Positions 8,571-12,652 of a stretch of DNA of 16,926 bases are shown in pieces (position 1 is the stretch's first letter; the number at the start of each line of letters is the position of its first letter). The notes under the pieces were generated by a model. That model worked only from the letters and a program-made list of their open reading frames with translations, searched no databases and was not told the DNA's origin. The stretch is from Treponema sp. (lineage in GTDB: Bacteria > Spirochaetota > Spirochaetia > Treponematales > Breznakiellaceae): contig JAITSE010000041.1 in the NCBI GenBank assembly GCA_031288005.1, positions 1 through 16,926 on the forward strand, written 5' to 3'. Made by a program: the position numbers and the translations under genes.

Positions 8571-8891
8571 TTAGGAATATAGGTATCTGTTTGATATATT
8601 TGTTTTTATATGAATAAAACCCTCCTCCGTGAGTCCTAAATTGTTTAGAATGTCCTGCCTGTTGCGTCGGAAGAAGGCGAGGGTATCTGAATAGTAAGTG
8701 AAGCCGGGGAAACCGCCGTCCGCTCCGTGTTTGGTGCAATCCGCAATGGTTACGGAGAGGCTTTTAAGGCCGTCGTTACTGCGGTAGTCTAAAGCGGTAA
8801 TAACATGGTGACTGGTGTCGGTTTGCCATGCCGAATGTTCTTTGACATAGGTAATGAGACCCTGAATATTTTTGATGGTGACTGTACGCAT
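8571..8891 (-). CDS. Small conserved-type protein of unknown function (mobile-element style)
   Basis: 106 residues, starting at an ATG (complement of 8889-8891) with TAGGAGG six bases upstream, which is why I reject a start 27 codons earlier. It begins MRTVTIKNIQGLITYVKEH and contains TSHHVITALDYRSNDGLKS, CTKHGADGGFPGFTYYSD and TLAFFRRNRQDILNNL. The pattern of a gene product with a YYSDT-x-AFF-x-x-x-R-x-x-I segment resembles small proteins common on plasmids and conjugative elements (DUF7222-like; this is from memory and uncertain). No signal peptide or membrane helix. It points against the neighbouring genes and lies beside the attC-like end at 8985-9007. Its C-terminus ends in a different frame from a coding-like stretch (8480-8602), so it may be frameshifted near the end. 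Confidence 0.6.
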   Translation of the reverse strand: MRTVTIKNIQGLITYVKEHSAWQTDTSHHVITALDYRSNDGLKSLSVTIADCTKHGADGGFPGFTYYSDTLAFFRRNRQDILNNLGLTEEGFIHIKTNISNRYLYS

Positions 8892-8984
8892 TTGAAGCCT
8901 CCTAAAAAGTGAAAACAAGTTGGCATCTAGAAAGCGGTAAGTTTGGAATAATGCGGCCTTTATAGACCGCATGAAGACAAGCGA

Positions 8985-9007
8985 TACACCTGAACCGAAC
9001 GTTATGT
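8985..9007 (+). other. attC-like right end (GAAC|GTT core), upstream boundary of cassette 1
   Basis: CACCTGAACCGAAC followed by GTTATGT parallels CTGCCGGAAC-GTTATGC (site at 9761) and CAGCCGGAAC-GTTAAAA (site at 10771). I could not find a convincing matching left half upstream, so it may be a partial attC or an attI-like end. Confidence 0.45.
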
Positions 9008-9202
9008 GTCATTTGTCCTAAAATTGATTGGAAAATTTATTATATAAAAATTATATAATAAAAAACTGAAATAATGATTTTATATTTTCAATAAAAATAT
9101 AATTACGAAATGCGCCTTCGGCGTAAAATGTACTTTATTGTTGGTATTAAACAGATCCATCACTATTTGCTAAAATGGTATAAAGAATTACTGGAAAAAG
9201 GA

Positions 9203-9232
9203 TTGACAAAATAAAAAATTGTATTGTATGAA
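9203..9232 (+). promoter_or_regulatory. Promoter of the ACT-domain pseudogene
   Basis: Consensus TTGACA (9203-9208), 18 bases, TATGAA (9227-9232). It is followed by AAAGGAGA (9237-9244) seven bases before the ATG at 9252. Expression signals are intact although the gene is not. Confidence 0.5.
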
Positions 9233-9251
9233 TGATAAAGGAGAAATGGTA

Positions 9252-9575
9252 ATGATTTTAGAATTATTGGAAGATGAATATTTTATCATTTAAATTTGAT
9301 TCAAATTTTTCTGTAAAAAATATCTTTGATGGAGAATTTATATCTATAACAAAGACAAAAGATGAAATTTCTGTTGTTGCGGTTTTAAGTTTATCAGATG
9401 AATATAAAAAAATTGAAAAGGTTGGAAAATATTAAAATAAATGGAATACTTGATTTTGGTTTAATTAGGGATATTGAGTAAAATAAGCACCATATTGGCT
9501 GAAGAAAGAATAGGTATATTTGCCATTTCAACATATAATACAGATTATATAATGGTTAAAAAAATTATGAAATAA
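9252..9575 (+). pseudogene. ACT-domain protein gene broken by three frameshifts
   Basis: Joining four reading-frame pieces gives one recognisable small ACT-domain protein: MILELLEDEYFI (9252-9290), KFDSNFSVKNIFDGEFISI onward (9292-9432), KINGILDFGLI (9434-9469), then GILSKISTILAEERIGIF and AISTYNTDYIMVKK (9468-9575). The last two are the signature of stand-alone ACT proteins (GILSKIS-x-IL ... GIFAISTYNTDYI), a family of about 110-130 residues. Single-base indels fit near 9290, 9430 and 9468, and the C-terminus ends early. ACT domains usually bind amino acids; no target can be assigned. It lies between two attC-like ends as cassette 1, in DNA much more AT-rich than the flanking genes. Confidence 0.8.
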
Positions 9576-9601
9576 AAATGGTGGGGGTACGACTAAACAG
9601 C

Positions 9602-9767
9602 ACCTAATAGGTCTGTTTACGCTTCGCCGCCATTAGGCGGATCGGGGTTCCGTTCCGCTAGGTCGGTTACGCCTCCCACGCTCTACTCCACCCACGTTTT
9701 TGCAAGCCCTGGAAACCGTAGGTTTCCAGGGCTTGCAAAAACGTCATATACTGCCGGAACGTTATGC
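9602..9767 (+). other. attC-like site 1 (end of cassette 1)
   Basis: Left core ACCTAAT (9602-9608) followed by AGGTCTGTTTACG; right end CATATACTGCCGGAAC then GTTATGC (9761-9767). The two ends are imperfectly complementary, as attC ends are. The centre holds a perfect 24-bp palindrome with GTA loop (9694-9717 with 9721-9744). It shares its left flank (AAYAGGYCTGTWTAYG), GC-rich middle and right end with the site at 10598-10777. Confidence 0.65.
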
Positions 9768-9804
9768 GAAATCGGGCAAATTTTTTAAAAATTTAAAAAA
9801 ACGC

Positions 9805-9833
9805 TTGAAATATTTGGAAAAATCCTATAAAAT
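9805..9833 (+). promoter_or_regulatory. Promoter of the MNT/HEPN pair, apparently leaderless
   Basis: TTGAAA (9805-9810), 17 bases, TAAAAT (9828-9833). Only seven bases separate the -10 box from the ATG at 9841, and no ribosome-binding site precedes it, so the mRNA probably begins at the start codon. The promoter lies inside the cassette. Confidence 0.55.
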
Positions 9834-9840
9834 ACTATAC

Positions 9841-10137
9841 ATGGAAGTAATAAATATACCTCAGAAGTATCAAAATGATGTTGAACTGGCTGTAAATTAT
9901 CTCAAAAGTGAAGGTTGTTCGGCTATTTATTTATTTGGTTCAATAGTTACAGGAAAGACACATGATGAGTCAGATATAGACATTGGTGTAAAGGGACTAT
10001 CGCCAAAGAAATTTATTAGAACATATTCAATACTAAATAATAAGTTGCTAAATAGAATTGATCTTGTTGATTTTGATATAAATAATTCATTTTTTGAACT
10101 TTTGAATTCATTGGGGGAGGTAAAAAAAATTGGATGA
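9841..10137 (+). CDS. MNT-domain nucleotidyltransferase antitoxin (MntA-like)
   Basis: A 98-residue minimal nucleotidyltransferase. The hallmark is GSIVTGKTHDESDIDIG, that is Gly33-Ser34, ten residues, Asp45-x-Asp47, the metal-binding catalytic centre of the DNA polymerase beta-like fold. In characterised MntA/HepT pairs the MNT protein silences the HEPN ribonuclease by adding AMP units to a tyrosine near its active site (family knowledge). An intact catalytic motif suggests the same here. A frame extending upstream to 9700 is spurious because it runs through the attC-like hairpin. No Shine-Dalgarno sequence is present; the start codon sits at the predicted transcription start. It overlaps the next gene by 8 bases. 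Strongly AT-rich compared with the housekeeping genes, consistent with acquisition by transfer as a cassette. Confidence 0.9.
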   Translation: MEVINIPQKYQNDVELAVNYLKSEGCSAIYLFGSIVTGKTHDESDIDIGVKGLSPKKFIRTYSILNNKLLNRIDLVDFDINNSFFELLNSLGEVKKIG

Positions 10138-10603
10138 AAATATAAAACAGAAAATATTATTTGAAATCTCTCAAATTGATGAGGCAATAAATAGCACTAA
10201 ACCGCTTCGTGATCTGTGTAAAATTAAAGAACCTGATATAATTGAAAAATCGGCAGTAGCATTATTGTTGCAATCATTTTATAACGGTATAGAGAATATT
10301 CTTATAATAATTGTAAAATATTTCGATGCAAAATTGCCAAATGGCAGTAAATGGCATAAAGAATTATTGGAAAAGGCATTTGAAGAATCAAAAGAGCATG
10401 AGCAAATATTTCGAAATGAGATAAAGATAATTTTAAATGACTACATGAGCATGAGACATTTTATAAGGCATACGTATGGATTCAGACTTGATTGGGACCA
10501 AATGCAAGAACTAACAAATGAAATAGATAACATTTGGGTCATGGTAAAAGAAGATTTAAATAAATTCGTAGATAATAATTCGCAAGTGCCCGACTTCGCA
10601 TAA
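10130..10603 (+). CDS. HEPN-domain ribonuclease toxin (HepT-like)
   Basis: A 157-residue all-helical protein and the expected partner of the MNT gene. Its Rx4HxY motif is Arg109 to His114 to Tyr116 in MRHFIRHTYGF, the RNase active site plus the tyrosine AMPylated by MNT antitoxins in the MntA/HepT system. The start is a TTG at 10130 with GGGGGAGG nine bases before it; the nearby ATG at 10134 is out of frame. Overlap with the upstream gene implies translational coupling, antitoxin first. Its stop codon (10601-10603) lies inside the left core GCATAAC of attC-like site 2, a typical arrangement for integron cassette genes. The last codons form part of a 17-base inverted match to the cassette start. 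Likely role: RNA cleavage, giving growth arrest or phage defence, or simply cassette stabilisation. Confidence 0.88.
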   Translation: MDENIKQKILFEISQIDEAINSTKPLRDLCKIKEPDIIEKSAVALLLQSFYNGIENILIIIVKYFDAKLPNGSKWHKELLEKAFEESKEHEQIFRNEIKIILNDYMSMRHFIRHTYGFRLDWDQMQELTNEIDNIWVMVKEDLNKFVDNNSQVPDFA

Positions 10604-10777
10604 CAGGCCTGTATATGCTGCGGGCGCAGTAGCGCCCTTGGCCTCCGTTCGCCTAGGTCGTTCCGCTACGCTCCATTCCCACGCCGTTGCTCCGGCACAT
10701 TTTTTTGCGCCCTGAAACTGCTACGCAGTTTCTTTATCGGGCGCAAAAAAACGTCGTAAACAGCCGGAACGTTAAAA
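10598..10777 (+). other. attC-like site 2 (end of the MNT/HEPN cassette)
   Basis: Left core GCATAAC (10598-10604) followed by AGGCCTGTATATG; right end CGTAAACAGCCGGAAC then GTTAAAA (10771-10777). Between them are a GGGCGC/GCGCCC hairpin (10623-10638), a GC-rich middle similar to site 1, and a stem of 13 bp (10700-10712 with 10739-10751) capped by an 8-bp palindrome with TAC loop (10714-10732). Confidence 0.68.
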
Positions 10778-10820: not shown

Positions 10821-10848
10821 TTGATTTCATGTATTTACGCTCTATAAT
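10821..10848 (+). promoter_or_regulatory. Promoter of the lipoprotein gene, apparently leaderless
   Basis: TTGATT (10821-10826), 16 bases, perfect TATAAT (10843-10848). The ATG at 10856 follows seven bases later with no ribosome-binding site, the same geometry as the MNT gene. Confidence 0.6.
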
Positions 10849-10855
10849 TAATAAT

Positions 10856-12652
10856 ATGAGGCTGTTTCAAAACTCAATTCAAACGAGCTTTTTTACCTGT
10901 CTTTTCCCGGTCCTGTTTCTGGCCGGATGTTTTAATCCCATTACTGTAGAGCCTCCAGAAGGGGCCTTCAATGAAAAACCGGCGCGGACCGCTCCTTTCA
11001 CCGTGGAGATTAACATTGGCGATGACAGCCTGAACGCCAGGTTTCAGCATGACTCGGCCCGGACTGTTTTGAGCGGAGCCGGGGATTCCATGAGCCTCAT
11101 TAACAATTACGCCAATTTCGCGCAGCTTGCGGCCCTTGATGAAAACGGCAGGATTTCCTACATGGGAGAAAGTTTCAAGGCCAAGGATGCTGAAGGCGCG
11201 GTTTTCGATATACCTGGAGCTCTGGCAAAACAGAGCAAAATCTATCTTCTCTTGATGGGCCGCTGGGAAGAAGGCGCCGCGAATCCGACCCTTCTGGCCG
11301 CGGGGTGCAGCACGAGTCTGTCAGATGATGAAAATAAAGTGCTGCTTTATATGTGGCCCATAGTTGTAAAGGCGGAGATCAACTCCAGCCTCGGCCTGCC
11401 CGCTTCCAACTCTAATTCTAATGTCCCGGTAAAGTATAACAGGGAGAGCGGCGCGGCGGAATTGTGGCCCGCGGATTGCGAAATAAAGTGGACGATAACG
11501 GATGGAACCAAAACGTCCGGGGACCCTCTTGCGCCGCTGATTGCCGCGCAGGAAATACTCGCCGCGGTGAAGGAGGGGAGGGCTGTTCCTGAAACCCCGT
11601 CTGGGGGTATATGGGACGGGGAATACTCTTCTGAAAAGAAGCCGCTGAAGGTGGAGAAGGAGTTGATTAAGAGCCGTGGGAAGAATACGGCTGACGGCGC
11701 GGAGTGGGATGATGAAAAGGTCCTTTCAACCGGGGAAGTCGCCGGGAACGTGATAAGCTTGGATTTAAGCGGCTATACCGCGGGCCTTGAGGCTCAGTTC
11801 AACGAGGGATATGTGTACTTCAATTTTGAGTATGTGCCTTTTAACCTGAACGATCCAGCGGCGTGGCTGGAATGGGAAGGGAATTCTGAGTTTAAGCTTG
11901 ACGGCCTTGGCCTGCCTGTTTGGATAATCCGCAATGGGCTGAACGATGAGGCCGGCGATGAGAACACGGAATTTGACAGGCCGGCTGCGGGCGTATCCAA
12001 CGGGAACGGCGCGGCGGCTTTTAAGGTAAAACACCGGTACTGGGCGGCCAACCCTTCGGGAAGCCTTTGGGGTGAACCAGAAGCTCCCTATGATATGCTC
12101 AAGTTCGGCGGCAATTACTTCTTTACTGATTTTCCAGAGTATGAGGGAACAGCGGATACTTCGATAACTGTAAATGAGAGAGATTCTCTGCTTGCAGGAT
12201 ATGATCTTAAAGTGAGTTGTGTGTGGGATGATTATGAGCGGAGACCCTTGAGACCGGAGGAGGGCGGCGGCCTTCTTGAATGGGAGATTGACTGGAGCAA
12301 ATCCGGCCTGCTAACTCTCGCAACGGGGGAGATTAGTCCTGACGACCCTAACTGCGTAGCGCCTGAGAACCTAACAATCATCCGGGACTCATCCGGCGTA
12401 CAGAAATTGAAACTCTTAACCTTCTTCAATGGATCAGTAAACGGTTCTACTCACAGATATGTGATTGCCCTGAGGGGAAGGCTGGAAAAAGGCTTTAAGG
12501 CGCATACCGCCGATATTATAGATATAGAAACATTTAAGGGCGGCGGCGCTTATATAAAAACTGGTGAGAGAAGTTTTGAAGATGGCCAAGATTACTCAGG
12601 CAGTATAATAAGCTATTGGGGTAACTCCCATGGTGTAGATTTCATTTTCTGA
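10856..12652 (+). CDS. Large lipoprotein of unknown function
   Basis: 598 residues. The signal peptide MRLFQNSIQTSFF is followed by a hydrophobic core and the lipobox LAGC, with the lipidated cysteine at residue 25; the mature protein is thus anchored in a membrane, inner or outer leaflet not determinable. I do not recognise a domain. The mature part is acidic, rich in Trp/Gly/Asp and has beta-type strands (for example YVYFNFEYVPFNLNDPAAWL). A Ser-Asn run (ASNSNSNVPV) sits near residue 187. Start: I prefer the ATG at 10856 to the one at 10829, which adds nine residues before the signal peptide and overlaps the promoter. Codon use is GC-rich like the resident genes, so although it follows attC-like site 2 directly, it has no attC after it and is probably not a cassette. 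Long treponeme lipoproteins of this sort often lack characterised homologues. Confidence 0.82.
   Translation: MRLFQNSIQTSFFTCLFPVLFLAGCFNPITVEPPEGAFNEKPARTAPFTVEINIGDDSLNARFQHDSARTVLSGAGDSMSLINNYANFAQLAALDENGRISYMGESFKAKDAEGAVFDIPGALAKQSKIYLLLMGRWEEGAANPTLLAAGCSTSLSDDENKVLLYMWPIVVKAEINSSLGLPASNSNSNVPVKYNRESGAAELWPADCEIKWTITDGTKTSGDPLAPLIAAQEILAAVKEGRAVPETPSGGIWDGEYSSEKKPLKVEKELIKSRGKNTADGAEWDDEKVLSTGEVAGNVISLDLSGYTAGLEAQFNEGYVYFNFEYVPFNLNDPAAWLEWEGNSEFKLDGLGLPVWIIRNGLNDEAGDENTEFDRPAAGVSNGNGAAAFKVKHRYWAANPSGSLWGEPEAPYDMLKFGGNYFFTDFPEYEGTADTSITVNERDSLLAGYDLKVSCVWDDYERRPLRPEEGGGLLEWEIDWSKSGLLTLATGEISPDDPNCVAPENLTIIRDSSGVQKLKLLTFFNGSVNGSTHRYVIALRGRLEKGFKAHTADIIDIETFKGGGAYIKTGERSFEDGQDYSGSIISYWGNSHGVDFIF

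Follow-up and report, generated by a model that had tools for sequence, protein, structure and literature searches.

An orphan two-cassette array in a treponeme genome and the spirochaete integron system to which it probably belongs

Two cassettes at a locus with no recombinase gene

The window, by which we mean the whole 16,926-nucleotide stretch of Treponema sp. DNA analysed here, carries two units of low GC content (0.23-0.31, against 0.46-0.56 to their right) that are delimited by GTT ends at 9001, 9761 and 10771 (Table 1). The three ends and the fall in base composition had both been pointed out in a first-pass annotation, which read the region as two integron-type cassettes with no integrase nearby (a CALIN). 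Two attC-like sites are indeed present and no integron integrase was found in the 16.9 kb, where tblastn with six recombinases (of the new type described below, IntI and Xer; E<=0.01) returned no tyrosine recombinase. An Rfam search of the window at gathering score gave no match except one tRNA.

Cassette 2 starts with GTTATGCGAAATCGGGCA and ends with the reverse complement of that sequence bar one base, just as had been claimed, and its ends are the sole inverse pair matching at 15 or more of 18 positions at a spacing of 200-3500 nt in the entire window. The genes between them, for a nucleotidyltransferase and a HEPN protein, are adjacent and overlapping and by family match form a putative MNT/HEPN toxin-antitoxin pair; the HEPN stop codon (10601-10603) does lie within R'', the left core. 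In cassette 1 the complementarity between the two ends is mostly lost (10/18), the left core reads AAT, not AAC, and there is no ORF of at least 60 aa. In G007, G153 and G162 there are relatives of the inner part of cassette 1 whose frames are open for 128-146 codons, and the single relative scanned matched ACT_7 in Pfam. We take 9001 as a cassette start because 13 of the 44 DNA matches listed begin exactly at that base, and because in both of the matches checked (L341 and L349) the similarity is preceded by an attC right arm. In the window itself, the GTT at 9001 follows unrelated sequence ending in ACCGAAC, and attC is absent to its left.

On its left the array adjoins a minus-strand gene for a DUF7222 protein (8571-8972), found in 9 of the 195 genomes of the family surveyed below. 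Positions 10829-12652 encode a lipoprotein-like protein of 607 aa with no Pfam match, whose relatives occur in 3 of 11 genomes searched with up to nine matches per genome. A genome scan with the 927-aa neighbour gene as query gave no match. The best matches of the ornithine carbamoyltransferase of the window, 85% and 84% identical, come from Treponema sp. MAGs that are presumably termite-gut bins.

Table 1. Features of the two-cassette array (positions in the window).
Feature	Position	Strand	Details
Left junction ACCTGAACCGAAC/GTT, no attC	8986..9003	+	Candidate secondary (attG-like) insertion point; no attC arm leftward
Cassette 1	9001..9760	+	Begins GTTATGTGTCATTTGTCC; ACT-domain gene, decayed; attC site 1 at its end
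attC-like site 1	9602..9767	+	R'' ACCTAAT, L'' CTGTTTACG, hairpin 9694-9744, L' CATATACTG, AAC/GTTATGC; fold z -10.1
Cassette 2 (MNT/HEPN unit)	9761..10770	+	18-nt complementary ends; 93.7% identical unit in G006
Left extended R arm, cassette 2	9761..9778	+	17/18 complementary to 10587-10604; mismatch at conserved position 11
MNT-type nucleotidyltransferase, putative antitoxin	9841..10137	+	98 aa; Pfam Polbeta 1e-10, NTP_transf_2 1e-6
HEPN/HepT-like protein, putative toxin	10130..10603	+	157 aa, TTG start; Pfam HepT-like_2 2.6e-28
Right extended R arm, cassette 2, R'' included	10587..10604	+	Complementary to 9761-9778
attC-like site 2, array end	10598..10777	+	R'' GCATAAC, L'' CTGTATATG, long hairpin, L' CGTAAACAG, AAC/GTT; fold z -5.0

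Folded sites and complementary cassette ends

Sites of this class have the architecture of attC, an imperfect palindrome R''-L''...L'-R' with AAC and GTT and an extra L'' base. The left arms of the two sites in the window lie at 9601 and 10597, and the hairpin of site 1 is a perfect 24-nt inverted repeat (9694-9717/9721-9744). The right-arm pattern matches twice in the window against a mean of 0.03 in shuffled sequence, two matches never being reached in 200 shuffles, and each site, read on its bottom strand, gives a much more stable fold than its shuffles. The flanks of each site had been described as complementary to one another, which holds in part: the L boxes (9613-9621, 9745-9753, 10609-10617 and 10755-10763) are swapped between the sites, L'' of site 1 pairing exactly with L' of site 2 and L'' of site 2 pairing with L' of site 1 at 8 of 9 positions. 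This could be a true exchange or an assembly chimera. Orphan arrays, that of the window among them, often lack intact pairing of L'' with L' inside a site, which we ascribe to decay, shuffling or chimeric assembly. The swapped boxes also prompted us to consider a cassette boundary between L'' and L', for which neither pairing clearly exceeded shuffles (431 and 495 of 5000 reached it). The GTT boundary was kept, since the arrays adjacent to a recombinase gene mostly pair within the site and the comparison of cassette ends given below shows a boundary at GTT.

By their arms, 56 full sites were gathered from the loci, with a variable middle and a core length of 48-183 nt; 49 passed a stricter filter and 42 were aligned, six shorter sites and one longer being left out. 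In this alignment, pairs form in 90.5% of the cells of the R and L helices as proposed and in 25-39% when one side is slid, and the covariation score is higher than in all 500 shuffles. The count of pairs changed on both sides is not above shuffles (137 of 500 reach it), and RNAalifold recovers the L helix unaided. As the arms served to gather the sites, their conservation is in part a product of the selection. The site core of the 56 has T as its fifth base in 71%, and its consensus GTTAKRY departs from the classical GTTRRRY/RYYYAAC as given in the accessible text of PMC3053210. When the sites are folded as they would be in a free circle, stability is higher for the bottom strand than for the top in every site of the three sets (28/28, 23/23 and 6/6; 57/57 overall); the same source has classical IntI bind the bottom strand.

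In the 37 units with both ends visible, the 18 nt at the start are complementary to the 18 nt immediately before AAC. Over the variable positions 13-18, agreement within a cassette averages 4.78 of 6, against 2.00 with the junction neighbour (n=24) and 2.21 in shuffles (maximum 3.03 among 5000 shuffles). The ends almost always mismatch at position 11, where 36 of the 37 starts have A and 34 of the 37 ends have C, which amounts to A.C on the top strand and a G.T wobble on the bottom strand; in L317, where the search did not require this signature, the mismatch occurs in 16 of 16 units. Six stretches from genomes with a classical IntI (L311-L316) yielded no unit with the position-11 signature, and one of them (L312) has two mirrored pairs that are without it. 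Since promoters are no more frequent in the cassette leaders than in shuffled leaders or on the reverse strand, we do not claim a built-in cassette promoter.

A dedicated recombinase and its arrays in other spirochaetes

The right-arm pattern, TANACNGCCGGAACGTTA, was searched in 195 genomes from the family to which the nearest relative (G001) belongs and is present in 83 of them, with up to 15 copies per genome; a control with the arm read backwards gave one match in one genome. No exact arm was found in viral contigs. The array in L160 is headed by a 411-aa tyrosine recombinase transcribed toward it, and a tyrosine recombinase of about 400 aa occurs in 67 of the 195 genomes; the 40 further recombinase loci that were taken all encode homologues of the L160 enzyme (42-82% identity). 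A sample of 392 genomes from the phylum contains a relative at E<=1e-55 in 51, of which 41 are outside the 195 of the family. Among the rows listed for phages, plasmids and viral contigs there are distant recombinases only, with at most 42% identity bar one short match.

The strict arm and the recombinase occur together in 26 of the 195 genomes, which is about what chance would give for 83 genomes with the arm and 67 with the recombinase: at E<=1e-60 the recombinase is missing from 57 of the 83 site-bearing genomes, and the exact arm is missing from 41 of the 67 with the recombinase. This lack of a positive association may be due to L boxes that differ between lineages, to loss and to incomplete MAGs; many of the genomes are MAGs, and contigs often stop near the sites. 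Three of the 11 site-bearing genomes searched (G014, G015 and G119) have no PF00589 match at E<=0.001, XerC/D included, either through gaps in the MAGs or through true absence.

At the recombinase loci themselves, the arrangement is that of a half-site, a putative attI, followed by an oriented cassette array. In 41 loci of the family, 26 complete cassettes lie downstream on the recombinase strand and none on the opposite strand, while upstream, in a longer total, there is one on each. At least one complete downstream cassette is present in 13 of the 41 loci and none in 28; among loci with at least 1000 nt downstream, the figures are 11 of 25 with cassettes and 14 of 25 with none. The first cassette begins 110-544 nt past the recombinase stop codon in 11 of the 13 (1165 nt in L230 and 4060 nt in L226). 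Outside the family, 8 of 20 loci from the phylum have cassettes of the same design, 18 on the recombinase strand and none opposite (upstream, one and none), with other L boxes where these were read; 12 of the 20 have no complete cassette, and 8 of the 13 with at least 1000 nt downstream are positive. The two cassettes of L309, both AT-rich, may be chance matches, and shuffled loci gave one match in 208 kb.

Long arrays were found in three genomes. Breznakiella homolactica (G018) has 34 cassettes between 3,520,225 and 3,559,598, in one 39-kb run directly behind the recombinase. G300 has 28 in two groups 40 kb apart, the stretch that was read stopping inside the second, and Treponema primitia ZAS-2 (G141) has eight, of which three lie at the recombinase and the other five 20 kb on. 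The search of these three genomes required the position-11 signature, and it found no cassettes on the other strand and none in a reversed control. Other named holders of the recombinase are Hollandina sp. SP2 and Treponema sp. TIM-1. Pfam matches at E<=0.001 were obtained for 18 of the 30 cassette genes scanned (of 34) in B. homolactica, two of them under Pfam's own cut-off, and include the acetyltransferase, NUDIX, PIN, AbiC-like, AAA ATPase and peptidase S51 families, among others. Such cargo resembles that of known chromosomal integrons.

The recombinase is not a classical integron integrase. The IntI-specific insertion (LPxALxRKYP...WxWQWVFP variants) is absent from the six new recombinases displayed and present in 8 of 8 IntI; the core is 267-271 residues long in all 35 new rows, against 313-320 in eight full IntI, and where PDB 2a3v has 58 residues the new recombinase has 16. 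Against the IntI profile TIGR02249, the L160 enzyme scores 201 bits, below the cut-off of 265. In a tree, nine IntI rows form a clade (100/99) with none of the 35 spirochaete rows inside it, and the new enzyme is also separate from XerC/D. The integrase of the Leptospira phage LkmZ_Bejolso9 (L336) falls on a long branch inside the spirochaete recombinase group. The new recombinases have an extra N-terminal beta-alpha domain (L160:7264-7500), for which no fold is named: modelled alone it gave a poor model (pLDDT 53), and the rows mostly span residues 130-409 only. A canonical treponeme IntI (L124:1189-1390) has, by eye, an N-terminal extension with a similar W-rich stretch.

Probable origin of the orphan array and relation to other integrons

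Of 30 loci, 27 contain DNA with similarity to the MNT/HEPN region, and in only two of these (G006 and G108) does the similarity start at GTT, exactly at 9761 in each case; in G006 the left flank is a different one, and in G084 the unit is preceded by an attC arm. As at 9001 in the window, attC is absent from the left flank in both G006 and G108, and these attC-less flanks are likely the result of insertion at secondary sites, which the accessible text of PMC12901181 names attG. HEPN/MNT pairs are not confined to cassettes, as the remaining homologues are for the most part more distant, with no attC arm close by. No empty site was found when both window flanks were compared with the fetched loci, or in the sequence upstream of the DUF7222 relatives.

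Positions 9001-10777 of the window are best read as an orphan two-cassette array of a spirochaete integron system, as the absence of a recombinase from the 16.9 kb, the arrays that the same sites form behind a recombinase in relatives and the left edge of the MNT/HEPN unit at GTT in two genomes bear out. The first reading of the sites as a divergent attC class was correct yet fell short of the data, since the integrase is also without the IntI-specific domain; it is for this reason that we regard the whole platform as non-classical. We infer recombination by this system from its sequences. In relatives, the recombinase points to an attI half-site that is followed by same-strand cassettes, each extending from GTT as far as a folded attC-like site. 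Recombination by the enzyme between two attC, or between attC and attI, would release a cassette in circular form. Once the circle is free, the 18-nt ends of the cassette would pair and make the attC stem longer than a classical one, the enzyme would act on the folded bottom strand with the crossover at GTT, and the conserved mismatch at position 11 (G.T on the bottom, A.C on the top) may aid strand choice. Entry of cassettes at secondary GTT sites would account for orphan insertions like that of the window, in which a toxin-antitoxin pair would help to retain the DNA.

An origin of the window in this system, with its dedicated non-IntI recombinase and the mechanism just proposed, is the best explanation and in our view a very probable one. 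An ordinary CALIN left by a classical Treponema IntI integron, with the deviations due to decay, is unlikely and largely contradicted. IntI integrons are known in some treponemes, with a recombinase oriented toward the array as it is here (PMC3607928, accessible text), and 5 of the 195 genomes exceed the TIGR02249 cut-off; those five carry none of the right arms, however, stretches from IntI genomes contain no position-11 units (L312 with its two mirrored pairs included), and intact arrays sit behind a recombinase other than IntI.

The Xer-like character of the enzyme could also suggest that host XerCD moves the units in the manner of pdif modules, with no integron function, and pdif modules often carry toxin-antitoxin pairs. 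It is hard to reconcile this with a dedicated recombinase that is placed apart from XerC/D and heads the arrays, or with long folded sites that have cassette-specific complementary ends, and we consider it highly improbable. Inverted ends of 18 nt and many scattered copies would likewise be expected of non-autonomous transposons with terminal inverted repeats, or of spreading structured repeats, in place of site-specific cassettes; yet the arrays keep to one strand, have one shared site per junction and start at a half-site behind the recombinase, and the ends pair within units and not between them, which leaves very little probability for such elements.

The spirochaete system resembles sedentary chromosomal integrons, such as those of Vibrio and Treponema denticola, in its recombinase gene, attI-like half-site and same-strand array of small cassettes, in its folded attC-like sites with AAC/GTT cores, an extra L'' base and a better-folding bottom strand, and in a cargo with acetyltransferases, NUDIX, PIN and abortive-infection proteins. 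It differs from them in an integrase without the IntI-specific domain that lies outside the IntI clade, in 18-nt complementary cassette ends with a fixed mismatch where they have a 7-nt R box, and in the core GTTAKRY where they have GTTRRRY. The Treponema integrons described in the accessible part of PMC3607928 are found in the same or neighbouring genera, have a recombinase transcribed toward the array and, in some species, long attC, and in T. phagedenis attC cassettes occur without intI, as in the window; they have IntI, which the new system does not. Compared with XerA and Xer-like recombinases (NCBIfam NF040815; PDB 5hxy and 4a8e), the new enzyme scores under the curated cut-off, has the extra N-terminal domain and is associated with cassette arrays. 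It is possible, though we put this forward tentatively and find it somewhat less probable than its opposite, that a second integron lineage arose in spirochaetes, in which a Xer-like recombinase that never had the IntI domain independently came to recombine folded single-stranded cassette sites, with strand choice through the 18-bp outer stem and its bottom-strand G.T wobble and perhaps through its own N-terminal domain.

As far as the accessible texts go, the additional domain is the defining mark of integron integrases (PMC9668308, PMC7784347, PMC9024848), is held necessary for single-strand recombination (PMC9668308, PMC7784347) and is needed by IntegronFinder to call an integrase (PMC9668308); attC models for spirochaetes exist (PMC8352920, likewise). 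A literature search, with subscription papers and preprints outside its reach, returned no published report of this spirochaete integron system, which was probably missed because IntegronFinder requires the very domain that it lacks, and integrons without the additional domain would have escaped detection. Integrons were reported to be absent from the termite treponemes T. primitia and T. azotonutricium in the accessible part of PMC3607928, and for T. primitia that report is revised by the recombinase and eight cassettes of strain ZAS-2. What we describe is a real, phylum-wide integron variant, an added reservoir of cassettes in spirochaetes, cultured species included, and one that lets the origin of integrons be asked as a question of whether the additional domain was gained, lost or replaced.
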